53,727 nucleotides of DNA from an uncultured Lachnospiraceae bacterium (lineage in GTDB: Bacteria; Bacillota; Clostridia; Lachnospirales; Lachnospiraceae): assembly GCA_947623805.1 (NCBI GenBank), contig CANQHZ010000012.1, positions 1-53,727 on the forward strand, in the 5' to 3' direction. The position numbers and the translations under genes were made by a program. A model generated the notes under the pieces. It ran no database searches. It worked only from the letters and a program-made list of their open reading frames with translations, and was not told the origin of the DNA. The first letter of the stretch is position 1, and each line of letters opens with the position of its first letter. Of the stretch, positions 4,347 through 53,727 are shown one piece after another.

Positions 4347-6410
4347 TCACTTATATTCACTTACATCGTTAAACGTAGCCATCATTATCATGACATCCGA
4401 CCGCCTGCCTACGAGTTTCACGGTTATGCGGTACCAGACGTCATCGCTTACTTCATATTCCATCGGCTCACAGAAGTCGCCCGCCGCAATCTTGGCAAAA
4501 GCCTCTTTCAGCATATCGTGTTCCGCCGCCATGCGGCGATTATGTTCCATTTCTCCGATATCTTTCTCAAAGGCAATTTCATTTTCATATTTACTGTTTG
4601 CCCTGAGCAGCTCAAGCTTATCCTTTCTGTACTCGTATATCGCGATGGGCACTTCAAGCATATCAAAGAAAATGCTGACATTCGAGCGCGTATTCCACAG
4701 CTCGCCGACTATCACGGCATTGTCGTCTTTGACATTCTTTGCCTCCATCTCCTCCTCGCGCGCGATAAACGCCTCGTAGTCCTCCACGGGCATAGGTCTC
4801 GCGTAATAAAAGCCCTGCGCGTACTCACAGCCGATACATTTGAGGAAATCAACCTGCTCGATTGTCTCCACGCCCTCCACTATTGACGGCAAATGCAGCC
4901 ACTTAGCCATGCGGATTACGGAAGTAAGCACTTTCTCGCCCTTGCCGTTAAACTCCGTATCCTGCTGGAGAAACTTCATATCGACTTTCAGGTAATCAAT
5001 CTCCATATCTTTCAGGACATTCAACGAAGAATAACCGCTGCCGAAATCGTCCATCATTATCTTGAAACCCAGTTTGTGGAGCTTGCTCATGCTGCGCATT
5101 ACCAGGTCCTGGTCTTCCATAAACGCGCTTTCCGTGAGCTCCAGATTGAGCAAATGCGTCGGTATCCTAAATTCAGTCACAAGATTTTTGAGTATATCCA
5201 CAAGATGCGGATTGTAAATATTTACCCGCGACACGTTCACTGAAATAGGATTTGGATTTTTGCCCTCGTCAAGCCATTTGCGCAGCAGCATACACACATG
5301 GCGCCACATATACTGGTCCAGCCTGCCTATAATGCCGTTGCGCTCATAAATAGGAATAAACTCGCCCGGCGAAATCATGCCACGCTCAGGGTGTTTCCAC
5401 CGCACAAGCGCCTCCGCACCATACGAGCGGTCGGTCACGAGGTTAATCTTTGGCTGCAGATATACCTGAAACTGCTCCTCCTCCAACGCCTTGTTCACTT
5501 CGTTGATTATATACTGCTCCTGGCGCATATTCTCAATGAGGCTATCGTCATAATACGCTACATTTTCATCAAATTTACCCTTGCAGTTTTTCGCCGCAAG
5601 ATTGGCCCTGTCGTACATCTCCGAGACATCTATGCTATAGTCATTTATGATGTAAACGCCGCATGAAACCTTTATGTTGTAGTCCTTATTCAATTTGCGC
5701 ACGTTAATCTGCAGCGCCTTGGCAAGCAGCTCGATATTTTCCTCCTTGTAAGGCATACATACCGCAAAGATGTCGTTTTCAATCCTACCGTAAAGAAAAT
5801 TGTCAAACGCCTTAGATATGCGGTCAAGCTCTCTTGCTATGCTGATAAGCACCTTGTCGCCTTCCCTGATGCCGTAAAAGTTGTTAATCATCTTGAAACG
5901 GTCTATATCAAAGCGCACAAAGGCAAACTTCTGGCTCTCTCCCAATTCGTCAAGCATCTGCCGCACTTCATTGTAAAATTTAAACTTTGTGTAAAGTCCT
6001 GTTACGACATCGCGCTCTGCTATAATCATGCGGCTTTTTTCGAGCGCGTTTTTAATTCTGAACTGCAAAAGGACAGGATTATAGGGTTTCATGACAAAAT
6101 CCCACACTCCCGCCTCCAGGCATCTCTTTTCAGAGTATTCGTCCTCATTCGACGTAGCCACGATTACGGGAATATTGGCATACTCCTGATGCGTCCTAAA
6201 CTCCTCCATAAACGAAAAACCGTCCATCACAGGCATAATCAGGTCAAGCACGATGAGCGCTATATCCTTTTTGCGGTCCGCCAAAAGCTCAAGCGCCTCC
6301 TTACCGTTTGAGGCCGAAACCACGTCAAATTCTACGGACAGTACATCTCTGAGCCTTGCTTTTATCATTTCCTCGTCATCGACTATCATTATAGTATTTT
6401 TTCTATCCAT
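4347..6410 (-). CDS. Response regulator with REC, degenerate GGDEF, EAL and PAS-like domains (c-di-GMP phosphodiesterase)
   Basis: About 687 residues. An N-terminal receiver domain has the DD acidic pair and phospho-acceptor aspartate (LIVLDLIMPVMDG, D56). The GGDEF-type domain (about 125-290) has the active-site motif replaced by IENDIF, so cyclase activity is unlikely. The EAL domain (about 305-555) keeps EALVRWKHPERG, LTESAFMED, MDDFGSGYSSL, LKVDMKFL and VEGVET, the metal and catalytic residues of an active c-di-GMP phosphodiesterase. The last 100 residues look like a PAS domain (VPIAIYEYRKDKLELL, ending NDVSEYK). The ATG at 6410 is chosen because AAAGGAG lies 11 nt upstream and falls inside the longer ORF. 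No partner histidine kinase is adjacent. Confidence 0.9.
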   Translation of the reverse strand: MDRKNTIMIVDDEEMIKARLRDVLSVEFDVVSASNGKEALELLADRKKDIALIVLDLIMPVMDGFSFMEEFRTHQEYANIPVIVATSNEDEYSEKRCLEAGVWDFVMKPYNPVLLQFRIKNALEKSRMIIAERDVVTGLYTKFKFYNEVRQMLDELGESQKFAFVRFDIDRFKMINNFYGIREGDKVLISIARELDRISKAFDNFLYGRIENDIFAVCMPYKEENIELLAKALQINVRKLNKDYNIKVSCGVYIINDYSIDVSEMYDRANLAAKNCKGKFDENVAYYDDSLIENMRQEQYIINEVNKALEEEQFQVYLQPKINLVTDRSYGAEALVRWKHPERGMISPGEFIPIYERNGIIGRLDQYMWRHVCMLLRKWLDEGKNPNPISVNVSRVNIYNPHLVDILKNLVTEFRIPTHLLNLELTESAFMEDQDLVMRSMSKLHKLGFKIMMDDFGSGYSSLNVLKDMEIDYLKVDMKFLQQDTEFNGKGEKVLTSVIRMAKWLHLPSIVEGVETIEQVDFLKCIGCEYAQGFYYARPMPVEDYEAFIAREEEMEAKNVKDDNAVIVGELWNTRSNVSIFFDMLEVPIAIYEYRKDKLELLRANSKYENEIAFEKDIGEMEHNRRMAAEHDMLKEAFAKIAAGDFCEPMEYEVSDDVWYRITVKLVGRRSDVMIMMATFNDVSEYK

Positions 6411-11654: not shown

Positions 11655-12812
11655 TTATTTCAACAAACTGTCCGCAAGCGCCTCCATCTGCTCCACATTC
11701 TCAGCTTTCATAGCGGATTTTATCGTCACCATAGGCTCAACGATATTCAACTCTTTCAAGCCCTCCAGCATAGCTTTCATTGTCCTGCCCGCTGACGGCG
11801 CCCAAGTGCCGTTTTCAATAATGCCGATTGTGCGTTTCTGATAATTCTTCGCCTTTAGTTTATTCAAAAAGCTCTCCATCGCAGGAAATACCCCCGCATC
11901 ATATGACGCCGACGCAAGCACCAGATGACTATATCGAAAAGCGTCCTCCACAGCCTCATGAATATCATCGCGGCAAAGGTCCGTAATCGCTACCTTTTTC
12001 GCGCCCTTTGCCTCCAGTATCTCTTTCATCTTCTCAGCCGCCTGCGCCGTATGTCCATGGATTGACGCATACGCGACAAGCACACCCTCGTCTTCCGGCT
12101 CATAGCTGCTCCAAACCTGATACTTACCTATATAAAAATCAAGATTTTCACTCAACACAGGCCCATGAAGCGGGCAGATAACATCAATCGCAAGCCCCGC
12201 CGCTTTCTTCAAAAGCATCTGAACCTGCATACCGTACTTCCCGCATATATTCATGTAGTATCTTCTCGCCTCGCACGTCCAGTCCTCATCAGCATCACGT
12301 GTACCAAATTTACCAAAACCATCAGCACTGAAAAGCACCCTGTCCTTCTGGTCATATGTCACCATAACCTCAGGCCAGTGAACCATAGGCGCCATAAAAA
12401 ACTGCAGCGTATGCACCCCCAAAGAAAGCGTATCGCCCTCATTTACAGTCAATGACCTCCCCTCAATATCCACCTCATAAAACTGCTTTAACATAGTAAA
12501 TGTCTTAGCATTACCCACAAGCGTCATCTCAGGGAAAAGCCCCATAAGCTCCATAATACTACCGCCATGGTCCGGCTCCATATGCTGTATGACAAGATAA
12601 TCCACAACCCTGCCATTCAATGCCTCTTTCAAATTCTTAAGCCATTCATCTGTCACCCTCTTGTCCACAGTATCCATAACAACCGTTTTCTCATCAAGTA
12701 TCACATACGAATTGTACGCCATACCCTTTTCCACCCGATACTGCCCCTCAAACAAAGTTATCTCCCTGTCATTCACACCCACATTAAAAATATCATTCGT
12801 CACTTTTTCCAT
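11655..12812 (-). CDS. fprA: FprA-type flavodiiron protein (oxygen/NO reductase)
   Basis: About 385 residues in two domains. The N-terminal metallo-beta-lactamase-like half carries the diiron ligands (HMEPDHGG, the HxExDH motif; MVHWPEVM; DGFGKFG; PLHGPVL). The C-terminal flavodoxin half begins VAYASIHGHTAQAAEKM, the FMN phosphate loop. These cytosolic enzymes reduce O2 to water or NO to N2O and protect anaerobes. The ATG at 12812 is chosen over an upstream in-frame start because the predicted -10 box (12868-12873) lies between them, so the earlier codon would not be transcribed. Rubredoxin or a flavin reductase must supply electrons from elsewhere. It is single-gene, with its own promoter and terminator. 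Confidence 0.9.
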   Translation of the reverse strand: MEKVTNDIFNVGVNDREITLFEGQYRVEKGMAYNSYVILDEKTVVMDTVDKRVTDEWLKNLKEALNGRVVDYLVIQHMEPDHGGSIMELMGLFPEMTLVGNAKTFTMLKQFYEVDIEGRSLTVNEGDTLSLGVHTLQFFMAPMVHWPEVMVTYDQKDRVLFSADGFGKFGTRDADEDWTCEARRYYMNICGKYGMQVQMLLKKAAGLAIDVICPLHGPVLSENLDFYIGKYQVWSSYEPEDEGVLVAYASIHGHTAQAAEKMKEILEAKGAKKVAITDLCRDDIHEAVEDAFRYSHLVLASASYDAGVFPAMESFLNKLKAKNYQKRTIGIIENGTWAPSAGRTMKAMLEGLKELNIVEPMVTIKSAMKAENVEQMEALADSLLK

Positions 12813-12867
12813 ATTACCATTACCCCTTTTCCTATACATTTTGTACATAAAACACTTACGCACTACC

Positions 12868-12896
12868 ATTATACCAGCAAACCCCAAAAGCTACAA
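12868..12896 (-). promoter_or_regulatory. Extended -10 promoter of fprA
   Basis: On the minus strand TTGTAG (12891-12896) precedes, by 17 nt, a perfect TATAAT (12868-12873) with an upstream TG, an extended -10. The predicted transcription start near 12861 supports the ATG at 12812 as the fprA start. Confidence 0.65.
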
Positions 12897-12926: not shown

Positions 12927-12973
12927 GCGCAAGCGGGTCTGAATGGGGTGCATGACCCTGCTCGGACGCCCCC
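12927..12973 (+). repeat. Copy A of a 47-nt bipartite dispersed element, upstream of asnA
   Basis: Block 1 (12927-12945, GCGCAAGCGGGTCTGAATG) is identical over 19 nt to a copy on the opposite strand at 53632-53650. Block 2 (12956-12973) matches 53604-53621 at 15 of 18 positions, and all differences are transitions. The spacer is 10 nt in both. Block 2 leads into a C-rich tract and then the asnA promoter 35 nt on. In this copy CCCGC-GCAA-GCGGG (12924-12937) can form a tetraloop hairpin. Function unknown. Confidence 0.8.
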
Positions 12974-13084: not shown

Positions 13085-14095
13085 ATGAAAAACTTAATCA
13101 TTCCCAACAATTACCACTCTGCGCTAAACCTTCACGACACGCAGATAGCAATTAAAACAGTCAAAGACTTCTTTCAAAACCAACTCGCACAACACCTACA
13201 CCTCGAGCGCGTATCCGCCCCGCTCTTTGTAGACCCCCTCTCAGGCCTAAACGACAACCTAAACGGCGTAGAGCGCCCCGTTTCTTTTGACATCAAAGAG
13301 CAAAACGGCAGACAGGCGGAAGTCGTCCAATCACTTGCCAAATGGAAACGCTACGCACTCAAAAAATACGGATTCACTCTCGGCGAGGGCATCTACACAG
13401 ATATGAACGCCATACGCCGCGACGAGGAAACCGATAATATCCACTCAATATTCGTAGACCAATGGGATTGGGAAAAAATCATCGCCAAAGAAGCGCGCAC
13501 TCTCGACACCCTAAAATCAACAGTAAAAGACGTATACAAATGCCTCAAAAACACTGAAAAATTTATGGCTATCCAATACGATTACATAGACGAACTGCTG
13601 CCCGACGATATCTTTTTCATAACCACTACAGAATTAGAGGAAATCTTCCCCGACTACACTCCAAAGGAGCGTGAATACTTTATCGCAAAAGCAAAAGGCG
13701 CGGCGTGTATTATGCAGATAGGCGATAAGCTCTCAGACGGCAAGCCTCACGACGGACGCGCCCCCGACTATGACGACTGGACGCTCAATTGTGATATAGT
13801 CGTGTACTATCCCGTACTGGACATCGCACTCGAGCTGTCCTCAATGGGAATACGCGTCGACAGAGAATCACTCATATCACAGCTTGAAAAATCAGGCTGC
13901 CCCGAGCGTGCCAAACTCCCCTACCAAAAAGCAATAATAGACGAGCAACTCCCCTACACCATAGGCGGTGGTATCGGACAATCACGCATATGCATGTTTT
14001 TCCTCAGAAAAGCGCATATCGGCGAAGTCCAGTCCTCAATATGGACCGAAGAAGATGCTGCTGAATGTGAGAGAAAAGGCATACAATTGCTGTAA
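13085..14095 (+). CDS. asnA: Aspartate-ammonia ligase (asparagine synthetase A)
   Basis: A 336-residue cytosolic enzyme that makes asparagine from aspartate, ammonia and ATP via an aspartyl-adenylate. Full length matches the AsnA family, which is related to class II aminoacyl-tRNA synthetases. Recognisable stretches are the early RVSAPLFVDPLSGLNDNLNG, the VQSLAKWKRYALKKYGF segment, GIYTDMNAIRRDE, SIFVDQWDWEK and the C-terminal GGGIGQSRICMFFL, which corresponds to the ATP-binding motif 3. It is the only protein-coding gene on the plus strand. An AGGAGA site lies about 12 nt before the ATG. It is single-gene, divergent from fprA, and ends at a bidirectional terminator shared with tsf. Confidence 0.96.
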   Translation: MKNLIIPNNYHSALNLHDTQIAIKTVKDFFQNQLAQHLHLERVSAPLFVDPLSGLNDNLNGVERPVSFDIKEQNGRQAEVVQSLAKWKRYALKKYGFTLGEGIYTDMNAIRRDEETDNIHSIFVDQWDWEKIIAKEARTLDTLKSTVKDVYKCLKNTEKFMAIQYDYIDELLPDDIFFITTTELEEIFPDYTPKEREYFIAKAKGAACIMQIGDKLSDGKPHDGRAPDYDDWTLNCDIVVYYPVLDIALELSSMGIRVDRESLISQLEKSGCPERAKLPYQKAIIDEQLPYTIGGGIGQSRICMFFLRKAHIGEVQSSIWTEEDAAECERKGIQLL

Positions 14096-14261: not shown

Positions 14262-15191
14262 CTATTTCATCTGCGCCGCAACTTCCTCAGCAAAATTCTC
14301 CTGCTTCTTCTCAATGCCTTCGCCTGTCTCAAAACGTACAAATCTCTTGACAGAAAGTTTCGCAGAGTTATCTTTTGCTACCTTGTCAATATACTGCTTA
14401 ACAGTCTGCTTGCCATCCTCAGCCTTGACATATACCTGCTCAACAAGACAAATCTCTTTAAGCTCTTTGTTAAGACGACCGTTTACAGCGCCATCTATAA
14501 CCTTATCGGGCTTGCCCGCCATCTTAGGGTCATTCTTAATCTGCTCAGCGATAATCTCTCTCTCATGAGCCTTGTATTCCTCTGAAATCTCGTCAGGCGA
14601 AACATACTTCGGGCTTAACGCCGCAACCTGCATAGCAAGATTTACAAGCGCTTCCTTGATGTTGTCATTCACTACATCAGTATCAGCCTCTACGATAACA
14701 CCGATTCTGCCGCCGCCATGCGTATATGAAACCACACAACCATTAGCAGCCGTAACCTTCTCAAATCTTCTGATAGTAAGGTTCTCGCCGATAACCGCAA
14801 TCTTCTCAATCAAAGCTTCTTTTACAGTCTTAGATGTATCCTCATTCCACTGCTCCGCAAGGAATGCATCTATATCTGATGAAGATGTAGCAAGTGCCTG
14901 TTTAGCCACTGACGTAACAAACTTCTGAAACTCCTCGTTCTTTGCGACAAAGTCCGTCTCAGAGTTTACCTCTACTACCGCCGCCGTATTACCCTCTACA
15001 AGCACCTTGCAAAGACCCTCGGCCGCAATCCTGCCAGCTTTCTTCTCTGCCTTTGCCTGCCCGTTCTTTCTAAGGAACTCAACAGCCTCCTCCATATTGC
15101 CGTTTGTCTCGTTAAGAGCCTTCTTGCAGTCCATCATGCCTGCACCGGTCATCTCTCTCAGCTCTTTTACCATTGCTGCTGTGATAGCCAT
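14262..15191 (-). CDS. tsf: Elongation factor Ts
   Basis: A 309-residue guanine-nucleotide exchange factor for EF-Tu. The N-terminal UBA-like module has the signature VKELREMTGAGMMDCKKALN. The second signature is VVEVNSETDFVAKNEEF, which contains the TDFV motif that disrupts Mg binding in EF-Tu. Two core subdomains and the C-terminal module follow, giving the full bacterial length. It lies 37 nt downstream of rpsB and is co-transcribed with it. rpsB-tsf directly after a flagellar operon is the arrangement known in Bacillus subtilis. Confidence 0.97.
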   Translation of the reverse strand: MAITAAMVKELREMTGAGMMDCKKALNETNGNMEEAVEFLRKNGQAKAEKKAGRIAAEGLCKVLVEGNTAAVVEVNSETDFVAKNEEFQKFVTSVAKQALATSSSDIDAFLAEQWNEDTSKTVKEALIEKIAVIGENLTIRRFEKVTAANGCVVSYTHGGGRIGVIVEADTDVVNDNIKEALVNLAMQVAALSPKYVSPDEISEEYKAHEREIIAEQIKNDPKMAGKPDKVIDGAVNGRLNKELKEICLVEQVYVKAEDGKQTVKQYIDKVAKDNSAKLSVKRFVRFETGEGIEKKQENFAEEVAAQMK

Positions 15192-52120: not shown

Positions 52121-52465
52121 TTATATCTGTATTTGCATAATCTCGCGGTATGCTTCAAGAAGCTTATCTCTGAGCGCTGTCGTATAGGCGAAAGCCGTCT
52201 GTGCTTTACCTACTGCAACGGTCAAGTCGTGAGGATTTTCTGTGATGCCCATGGACCATTTCAATTCTTCATTTTCCATATCAGACAATAAAACATTTGT
52301 GTCGTTTATGTTGCTTACCGCCGCATTGAAAATGGAGCCAAAGAGGCTTGAATCGCCTGTGGTCTTGGTTGTATCTGTGTCCGTGGTTTTGTTCAGTGTA
52401 TTTCTGATTGCATCAGAGCTTACGTTATATAAGCTTTTTATATCGTTTGCGGGTGTGATAGTCAT
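52121..52465 (-). CDS. fliE: Flagellar hook-basal body protein FliE
   Basis: A 114-residue export substrate that joins the MS-ring to the rod. The N-terminal third is variable. The C-terminal alpha-helical FliE core is clear: SLFGSIFNAAVSNINDTNVL, then MGITENPHDLTVAVGKAQTA and KLLEAYREIMQIQI. It lies between flgC and fliF, the standard arrangement. A GGAGG site precedes the ATG. Confidence 0.93.
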   Translation of the reverse strand: MTITPANDIKSLYNVSSDAIRNTLNKTTDTDTTKTTGDSSLFGSIFNAAVSNINDTNVLLSDMENEELKWSMGITENPHDLTVAVGKAQTAFAYTTALRDKLLEAYREIMQIQI

Positions 52466-52479
52466 TATGAGCCTCCTGT

Positions 52480-52974
52480 TTATTTATTCATTTCAAGTCC
52501 TTTGAGCATCATTGACTTTGATGCCTCAAAGGCTGCCTGGTTGGCATCATAGCCGCGTGATGCGTCTATCATGTTTGTCATCTCTGTAATGACGTTTACA
52601 TTTGAATAATGTACATATCCGTTTTCGTCAGCGTCAGGATGCTCGGGGTCATATGCCATGGTTTCTTCTGTCCATGTGTCCTCGTACAGTCCGCCTATCT
52701 TTACGCCTTGTCCTGGGCTTGAAAGCTTGGCTGAATTAAGCTGTCCGAGTGGTCTGCCTGAGAGGTTGCTGAACGCTGTATCGAGCATATGAGAGAAATT
52801 TCTGTTTTTTATGTTTGTCTTTTCCTGGAATGTCACTACTTTTCTAACGTAGCCGCCGCCGTCTTCTGTCCTTGTGGTGTTGGCGTTTGCAAGGTTCTGA
52901 GATGATATGTCCATGCGATATCTCTCCGCTGTCATACCTGATGCGCTTATATCAAAGGCTGTAAATAGTCCCAT
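52480..52974 (-). CDS. flgC: Proximal rod protein FlgC
   Basis: A 164-residue rod subunit. The N-terminal rod signature is FDISASGMTAERYRMDISSQ with NLANANTTRT. The C-terminal D0 helix includes NVNVITEMTNMIDASRGYDA and NQAAFEASKSMMLKGLEM. It is exported early and forms the proximal rod with FlgB, FlgF and FliE. It is second gene of the operon, 74 bp after flgB. A GGAGGT site precedes the ATG. Confidence 0.96.
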   Translation of the reverse strand: MGLFTAFDISASGMTAERYRMDISSQNLANANTTRTEDGGGYVRKVVTFQEKTNIKNRNFSHMLDTAFSNLSGRPLGQLNSAKLSSPGQGVKIGGLYEDTWTEETMAYDPEHPDADENGYVHYSNVNVITEMTNMIDASRGYDANQAAFEASKSMMLKGLEMNK

Positions 52975-53048: not shown

Positions 53049-53441
53049 TTACTTCATTACTGTCTGGAGCATTGAAAAATTCGTATTTACCAAATCTACA
53101 AGTGCGTTGTACTTGATTTGGTTTTCGGCGGATATTGCGTTTTCTGTGTCTATGTCTACGTTGTTGCCGTCGTATCTGTATGATAGTTCGGAATAGTCTA
53201 TGTAGGTCTTCGGGGTGAGTGATTCAAGCTCGATGTCTTTGACTTTGGCATCTGTGCTGTCGCCGTTTGCGCGGACAAAAGCGTGCTTTAGCTCGGTCTC
53301 GAAGCGTATGTCTTTGCGTTTGTAGTCCGGGGTATTGACGTTGGCAAGGTTATTGTTGATTAGCTCCTGGCGTTTGACTGCGGCATCCATGGTCTTGCTC
53401 ATGACGTTGATATAGTCAAATACATTTGTTGCTCCTAACAT
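53049..53441 (-). CDS. flgB: Proximal rod protein FlgB
   Basis: About 130 residues; first gene of the fla/che series. The N-terminal rod signature is MDAAVKRQELINNNLANVNT with PDYKRKDIRFE. The C-terminal helix includes NAISAENQIKYNALVDLVNT. The ATG at 53441 is preferred over one 18 codons earlier: AGGAGG lies 7-8 nt upstream of it, and the extra N-terminal residues (Asn-rich) are not typical of FlgB. The upstream 80 nt hold a sigma-A-type promoter. Confidence 0.95.
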   Translation of the reverse strand: MLGATNVFDYINVMSKTMDAAVKRQELINNNLANVNTPDYKRKDIRFETELKHAFVRANGDSTDAKVKDIELESLTPKTYIDYSELSYRYDGNNVDIDTENAISAENQIKYNALVDLVNTNFSMLQTVMK

Positions 53442-53519
53442 ATGCAATCCTCCTAATTTTTGTGTAAAATTATTATTGTTTGAATTGTTAAACATAAATA
53501 TACACTTTGTCCTTATTTT

Positions 53520-53547
53520 ATTATAGATTATTTTTGAAATATTTCAA
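53520..53547 (-). promoter_or_regulatory. Promoter of the fla/che locus with an overlapping palindrome
   Basis: On the minus strand TTGAAA (53542-53547) is followed after 16 nt by a perfect TATAAT (53520-53525), about 80 nt upstream of the flgB start. A perfect 14-bp palindrome, TTGAAATATTTCAA (53534-53547), covers the -35 box and could be an operator. The promoter looks sigma-A dependent, as for fla/che in B. subtilis; no sigma-28 consensus is visible. Confidence 0.65.
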
Positions 53548-53727
53548 GTATTATTTTTGTTTTGTTTAGGGGGGAGGGGGATTTGGGGAGAATTTTTTGA
53601 TTTGGGGACGCCCGAACAGGGAAATATATCTCATTCAGACCCGCTTGCGCTCACGGAAGTTTGACAGCCTAATTATCTTTCCATAACAGCCGTACACCCT
53701 TTAACCCTTTATAAAGACTGGATTTTC
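53548..53727. other. Upstream region of the fla/che locus with G-tracts
   Basis: No gene is supported. The plus strand carries four G-tracts of four or more (53569-53574, 53576-53580, 53585-53588, 53604-53607), so the template could fold as a G-quadruplex. The tracts run into the dispersed element at 53604-53650. Confidence 0.5.
53604..53650 (-). repeat. Copy B of the 47-nt bipartite dispersed element, upstream of flgB
   Basis: Read on the minus strand, block 1 (53650-53632) is identical to 12927-12945. After a 10-nt spacer, block 2 (53621-53604) matches 12956-12973 at 15 of 18 positions. A C-rich tract on the same strand follows, then the flgB promoter about 57 nt on. The GCAA hairpin of copy A is not well preserved here. 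Confidence 0.8.

Follow-up and report, generated by a model that had tools for sequence, protein, structure and literature searches.

Replication and transcription are the usual explanations for local strand asymmetry in bacterial DNA. ERIC, YPAL and bcr1 are long palindromic MITE-like repeats, non-coding and foldable, of a length and copy number similar to those of the hairpin element described here, from which they differ in sequence; we know of no strand-biased islands around them. The attC sites of integrons combine a variable sequence with a conserved structure and consist of a folded single DNA strand. TwoAYGGAY (RF01731), annotated as a cis-regulatory RNA, measures about 168 nt and has a long variable outer stem and inner hairpins. 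REPs are described, in the available part of PMC3733652, as having stems of 5-13 bp, a length of 20-40 bp and GTAG/CGTC tags, and that part makes no mention of strand-biased islands.

As a dispersed palindromic repeat, the present element is of an already known kind. Like the REPs, it is a DNA palindrome dispersed over intergenic regions and often arranged in head-to-head pairs. With about 130-170 nt and with CTAG / CGGGCG at its feet, however, it is not a short tagged palindrome in the sense of the available description of REPs and, unlike the REP/RAYT system, it has no link to a Y1 transposase. TwoAYGGAY resembles the element in its architecture, occurs in multiple copies in the same genomes and also has a strand-biased island, but its core is different and its island lies mainly 3'. 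As in recombination hotspots with biased gene conversion, the composition follows a site-centred gradient that fits a fixation bias, here seen from composition alone; the bias, however, is strand-oriented from keto to amino bases and is not a GC bias. A literature search found no description of this element or of strand-oriented codon islands, and as far as it shows the latter are new.

Results and discussion

The window analysed here is a stretch of 53,727 nt of DNA from an uncultured Lachnospiraceae bacterium (genome G000, the own genome below). An earlier note had drawn attention to a two-block repeat upstream of asnA and flgB and had read it as a binding site or RNA under selection, not as a product of chance. 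The repeat itself is as described there: block 1 is identical over 19 nt (12927-12945 on the plus strand, 53632-53650 on the minus strand), block 2 matches at 15 of 18 positions with three transitions, and the 10-nt spacer differs between the two window copies. Both copies point to the gene in question, asnA or flgB, names backed by scores above the NCBIfam cut-offs, and C-rich sequence comes next. Block 1 with up to three mismatches matched twice in the window and not once in 100 dinucleotide shuffles. Over the own genome it gave 26 matches, 13 per strand, against one for a reversed-pattern control.

Alignment of the surroundings gave a full element of about 169 nt with block 1 in its 3' part; the 47-nt repeat is the 3' arm of this hairpin element. 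Block 1 comprises a GNRA-type mini-hairpin and GGTCTGAATG, block 2 sets in with the outermost part of the 3' arm, and between them the variable spacer makes up the arm's covarying middle. The two blocks are the more conserved parts of the arm, and the C-rich tract after both window copies is the inner edge of a strand-biased island. Table 1 gives the features of both sites. At flgB the end of a multicopy repeat stands in place of the 5' half of the window copy, for which covariance model R1 gave a weak match (window 53610-53727, minus strand, 17.2 bits, E 0.13); the copy on contig C133 is whole. The last 50 nt of the repeat match nine other contigs of the own genome, in at least eight of the nine at a contig end. 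The repeat lies between two identical 133-nt stretches (window 53520-53727, L095 on C133), which would be unusually long for a target duplication.

Table 1. Features of the window and copies of the other hairpin families; positions refer to the window unless a locus is given.
Feature	Position	Strand	Remarks
Flavorubredoxin-like gene (below family cut-off)	11655..12887	-	coding-strand GC3 skew +0.60, i.e. element strand A/C-rich
Hairpin remnant upstream of asnA, 5'-truncated	12927..12968	+	mini-hairpin GCGCAAGC, GGTCT, outer 3' arm; mid-contig
asnA	13085..14095	+	A/C-biased third positions on element strand: GC3 skew -0.49, AT3 +0.40
fliE	52121..52465	-	GC3 skew -0.25, AT3 +0.15
flgC	52480..52974	-	GC3 skew -0.24, AT3 +0.34; effect weaker with distance
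flgB	53049..53495	-	element strand GC3 skew -0.45, AT3 +0.29
133 nt identical to C133:72-204	53520..53652	-	apparently a long direct duplication with an inserted repeat between its copies
Element 3' arm upstream of flgB	53609..53652	-	same site intact on contig C133 and in G019
End of multicopy repeat interrupting the flgB element at the contig end	53653..53727	.	last 50 nt, see text
TwoAYGGAY (RF01731) copies	L183:16052-16219, L411-L421, L007:1769-1935
Second hairpin family, about 90 nt	L189:16263-16500, L209:3883-4130, L190 about 14741-14832, L201 about 4379-4469		CGTAGA...TCGGACG

The element forms a dispersed family, folds into a long hairpin and is positioned between genes. Searching the own genome with R1 gave 42 places on the sense strand at E<=7e-15. 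Matches at E<=1 number 88; those beyond the 42 are echoes of the palindrome on the opposite strand, together with a few weaker or incomplete matches. Among 60 genomes, five had a match: G000 (at least 46), G019 (at least 47) and G028 (at least 47), all counts including echoes and lying at about the ceiling of 47 scored candidates per genome, G026 (30) and G002 (one diverged copy). None was found in 31 other genomes of the same genus and 24 of the same order. In the GTDB collection the exact core pattern occurred only in three Lachnospiraceae assemblies named Lapin, a name that suggests rabbit, and in one named RUI455 (G062), where 51 matches reach E<=0.1 and a 132-nt type accounts for many of them. 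A broader model, R2, was applied to 392 genomes sampled from the order and detected diverged relatives in 60 of them, belonging to 30 of 173 genera; its per-genome match numbers, drawn from the best seven candidates per genome, are lower bounds.

Several loci hold elements as divergent pairs or in tandem. Relative to the element, the nearest upstream and downstream genes at 42 own-genome places were oriented +,+ in 17, -,- in 9, +,- in 7 and -,+ in 4 cases, with 5 incomplete (one copy is counted twice here, L032/L036, and the neighbour C66:18458 is left out; later own-genome counts have 41 rows). For 39 places in G028 the numbers were 13, 12, 7 and 6, with 1 incomplete. The element therefore has no strong orientation to genes. 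Many copies at dispersed positions without orientation bias were what the earlier note had named as evidence against its own reading, and the genome-wide search found largely this. Copies do exist elsewhere in the own genome and in relatives, but R1 found none beside asnA or flgB in G028, whose gap equivalent to that at asnA is free of the element. A regulatory element for asnA and flgB was rejected in view of this absence, the dispersal and the missing strong orientation to genes.

Searches for an origin or partner gave little. None of the 8 + 20 loci tested against the Rfam 15 covariance models had an element match, and the only Rfam overlap in the 20-locus search was one sub-gathering match to a miRNA family (E 0.35). 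The exact core pattern had no match in viral_contigs and the L027 copy none in plasmids, which speaks against phage and plasmid origins, and no family recurred more than three times among 67 neighbouring proteins at 29 loci, which gave no support for a partner gene in cis. The flanks carry a conserved A/C-rich motif, CCAAYAAC, and to the eye the flank motifs include no locus-specific duplications. Outside G062 we found no clear terminal repeats or target duplications. In G062 the core hairpin lies inside near-identical units with GTTACTGTTCACA terminal inverted repeats (L282-L301) and was apparently mobilised as a MITE.

Most elements in the clade of G000, G019 and G028 stand in the middle of an island where A and C have taken the place of G and T on the element strand. 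Intact copies are mostly central to a zone that spans a few thousand letters, and the islands are symmetric and fade over 2.5-3 kb in all three species; the flanks have more C than G and more A than T on the element strand. At 20 loci of G028, codon-3 GC skew within 250 bp was -0.54/-0.55 and AT skew +0.36/+0.45; towards 2.5-3 kb the GC skew shrank on either side to values between about -0.03 and -0.14, and at +5-6 kb a residual -0.145 was left. Eleven loci of G019 gave the same pattern, five of G026 only a weak dip. Over 800 bp, the amino skew in G028 and G019 was positive at 29 of 29 loci on the left and 28 of 29 on the right; in the own genome the figures were 37/41 and 35/37, the exceptions including L079. 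At this last locus (G000:C5:57543-57711) the element stands opposite to its own flank motif and skew, as if the interior of the palindrome had been inverted in place.

The mean absolute codon-3 skew was 0.382 up to 0.9 kb from an element (296 windows, 71% above 0.3) and 0.159 from 3 kb onwards (2133 windows, 10% above 0.3). Replication direction was rejected as the cause, since the amplitude was the same for both signs of the distant GC skew (0.179 and 0.176 in G028 and G019). Around 20 near-identical copies in G062 no island was present, as would be expected if islands need time. At 21 single loci from other genera the picture was mixed.

The architecture comprises a long, variable and covarying outer stem, an inner hairpin and the GNRA-type mini-hairpin. 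The outer stem is an inverted repeat of about 25 bp, as in the terminal inverted repeats of MITEs. For 23 copies, RNAalifold gave 65 pairs, 34 of them changed on both sides. In 39 diverged copies, 39 of 41 pairs covaried, with 473 double-changed cells against a mean of 126 in shuffles and 85-105 in slid controls, in an alignment that was fitted to the model and leans towards the structure. The earlier note had proposed a test for covariation with an RNA structure tool. The outer stem does covary strongly, but almost purely by Watson-Crick exchanges: the 1552 pair cells divide into 1411 Watson-Crick, 42 G-T, 21 A-C and 78 other. So few G-U intermediates are unusual for an RNA; this shortage disfavors selection at the RNA level and suggests a DNA hairpin instead. 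By eye, a GNRA-type loop is widely kept on the element strand, as are tandem mismatches of the C(GA)G/C(GA)G type, and DNA folding parameters slightly favor that strand, which was the more stable one in 19 of 23 and in 29 of 39 copies. That the element is a gene for a structured RNA or a cis-regulatory RNA, its strand bias being related to transcription, would fit the strong covariation and the GNRA-type loops, and has a parallel in TwoAYGGAY, which is filed as a cis-regulatory RNA with its island mainly 3'. In view of the scarce G-T cells, the lack of a consistent gene orientation and the symmetry of the element's island, we consider it quite unlikely.

The genes beside the elements tell whether the island goes with the element or with the gene. 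In the flgB operon the bias fades within about 3 kb (Table 1), and the fliF-like gene next after fliE is at -0.03. The skew of flgB was -0.45 and -0.40 in the two species that carry the element at this gene, compared with -0.03 in G028 and -0.07 to +0.47 in 17 other species without it. R1 matches nowhere in 16 of the 17 genomes, and in the last one, G002, its single match lies on a different contig. Among 34 genes within 350 bp of 19 elements in G028, 33 were A/C-biased on the element strand and the remaining one was at -0.01. Fifteen of them are co-oriented with the element and 19 opposed. Coding strands in these genomes tend to be keto-rich, so that the co-oriented genes are the most telling; 14 of these 15 were positive. 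For comparison with relatives, 11 of the 34 gene pieces were picked as recognisable conserved genes, and 10 remained after one was found to have no orthologue. In up to three element-free relatives, the orthologues were lower in 29 of 29 comparisons (mean -0.06 vs 0.515), and R2 found no element in 30 loci of these relatives. The relatives were negative in 21 of 21 comparisons for co-oriented genes and positive in 8 of 8 for opposed ones, and therefore follow the coding strand only. Genes with reversed third-position composition presumably include pfk-, prfB-, ftsH- and gdhA-like genes, judging from protein sequences read by eye.

We conclude that the element likely causes the island. The converse, islands of other origin with an A/C-rich strand into which hairpin elements insert, would explain why several unrelated hairpin families sit in islands, why six peaks have no recognised hairpin (see below) and why the motif CCAAYAAC is itself A/C-rich. 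Such an insertion preference is unlikely, though, because the same genes lack an island in element-free relatives and, in the case of flgB, the bias is confined to the two species whose flgB has the element beside it.

Copies at orthologous sites allowed the history of the element to be followed. Twenty-one own-genome loci could be paired with element loci of G028; divergence was counted for 16 pairs, leaving out those with a long side hairpin and L036-L100. Of 2705 aligned element positions 152 differed (5.6%); for the 90-nt flanks the count was 314 of 2426 (12.9%). The constraint on the element is real, and this part of the reading in the earlier note is supported, most of the rest not: what is kept is a dispersed hairpin element and not an operator or leader of asnA and flgB. 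In the same 16 pairs, 34 stem pairs had switched from Watson-Crick to Watson-Crick on both sides, against 25 one-sided changes. At least four of the 21 orthologous pairs have the mini-hairpin replaced by a hairpin of about 60 nt in one species, and such side-hairpin swaps suggest ectopic conversion between copies.

In eight comparisons the element was missing from G028 or G019, and two of these retained clear remnants. An excess of G>A in the filled genome was seen in four of the eight (74/33, 33/15, 77/18, 36/23) and was not seen in the other four (20/28, 33/38, 18/19, 22/25). Losses and remnants would be expected of an inert or mobile MITE-like repeat with no relation to the islands, as would the near-identical, island-free copies in terminal-repeat units of G062. 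We regard this as highly improbable, since the element, where shared at orthologous sites, has changed less than the sequence on either side of it, and islands match elements in position and sign.

Synonymous changes were polarised by agreeing outgroups and read on the element strand, with flagellar genes as control. Near elements the counts were 80/201 for G>A, 13/188 for C>T, 90/161 for T>C and 9/125 for A>G; the control gave 52/361, 36/171, 57/249 and 45/181, respectively. Transversions shifted as well (G>C 22/201, C>G 3/188). Overall, keto-to-amino changes were raised and the reverse changes were below control. The AIC was 1273.7 for a one-parameter keto-to-amino fixation bias with B about 2.0 (background 1.05), 1288.1 when nothing but G>A and T>C mutation was added, and 1277.7 with all keto-to-amino rates raised; the lowest value, 1267.9, was obtained for mutation plus bias. 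The data favor biased fixation over added transitions alone; because the sites are near saturation, it is favored and not proved, and the model comparison is soft.

These spectra bear directly on pure mutation, where the exposed complementary strand deaminates (C>T, A>G) as in animal mitochondrial DNA, and no biased fixation is needed. The two largest asymmetries, G>A over C>T and T>C over A>G, are those it predicts. We nevertheless find it rather doubtful, given the transversions, the lowered reverse changes and the higher AIC, although multiple hits could explain part of this.

From the hairpin, its orientation, the composition gradient and the association with presence of the element, we infer strand-specific opening and biased repair. 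The element may be an initiation site for strand-specific recombination or repair, the bias of which drives the change from keto to amino bases; of the readings considered we find this the best, if still a tentative one. The element strand would fold as single-stranded or extruded DNA, and a putative nuclease or the host repair would open the folded element strand-specifically, so that to either side the complementary strand would be exposed as a single strand over as much as a few kilobases. On this exposed strand, damage, recombinational gap repair or both would then favor G and T, and hence A and C on the element strand. Stem pairing would persist because each arm is corrected by the other and by further copies of the element. 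RecA favors G/T-rich single strands and, according to one abstract, reportedly prefers TGG repeats. Against this biased repair we count the lack of an enzyme lead, the six peaks without hairpin, the single remnant at element-free peaks beside the matches in control stretches, the three second-family sites without an island (all described below), G062 without islands, the mixed genera, the four of eight comparisons without G>A excess and the soft model comparison, in which mutation plus bias did best.

Candidate enzymes were looked for, and none was supported. A Y1 transposase (PF01797) was missing from G019 and G026, G000 had one with an internal stop and G028 two weak partial matches; G022, with 13 matches, has no element. 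An integron integrase exceeded the TIGR02249 cut-off in none of 38 genomes of the genus, and no cassette arrays were seen, which sets the element apart from attC. Pairing of the outer flanks, as in attC R-boxes, was not locus-specific (longest run 3.35 vs 3.29, sd 0.09, shuffled, in 79 copies). In the TIGR02249 search, the best tyrosine-recombinase matches of G019 and G028 were much weaker (E about 1e-10) than those of the other matching genomes of the genus (1e-18 or better); an Xer-type protein may be missing from the two. Loss of SbcD is not supported either: G000, G019 and G026 have a full match, and G028 only a weak partial one.

Strong peaks of the same bias also occur without this element. 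At two of 12 such peaks we found TwoAYGGAY (L183; L193 via the overlapping L418) and at four a second hairpin family (L189, L190, L201, L209), with hairpins in matching orientation at all six. The other six had no recognised hairpin. One of them is a codon-3 A/C-rich peak in the window at about 33800 (+0.45). Of 16 element-free peaks, about twelve of them being those just described, one had a remnant of the first family (L201:17600); element matches were present in 7 of 60 control stretches, some of them to known diverged copies.

TwoAYGGAY is multicopy in G019 and G028 and is also present in G000. Its 3' flank was A/C-biased up to 1 kb at 15 of 15 copies, some of them orthologous and not independent, and its 5' flank at 13 of 15 within 150 bp and at 6 of 15 at 500-1000 bp; TwoAYGGAY may function at the DNA level. 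The second family occurs mostly as tandem pairs about 150 nt apart and, like REPs, bears the two tags, GTAG at one of its feet and CGTC on the opposite strand. In G028 and G019, five of its eight sites lie in a strand-biased island; those without one are L197, L199 and L213. It is possible, and we propose it with caution, that in some gut Lachnospiraceae dozens of DNA-hairpin sites start strand-specific recombination or repair, the bias of which rewrites synonymous codons in ordinary genes of either direction over up to about 2.5 kb on both sides, several hairpin families including TwoAYGGAY acting alike.

Conclusion

The asymmetry linked to this element is, as far as tested, independent of gene direction and of the distant GC skew, and it is strong enough to reverse the third-position composition of conserved genes. 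If biased repair at the element is true, these genomes would offer mapped sites for direct measurement of strand-biased repair or conversion, and orphan hairpin families filed as RNAs would gain a possible function. Codon-usage islands could then come from neighboring repeats and not from selection or gene transfer. The element would represent a bacterial counterpart of biased-gene-conversion hotspots, strand-oriented and anchored to a maintained element.
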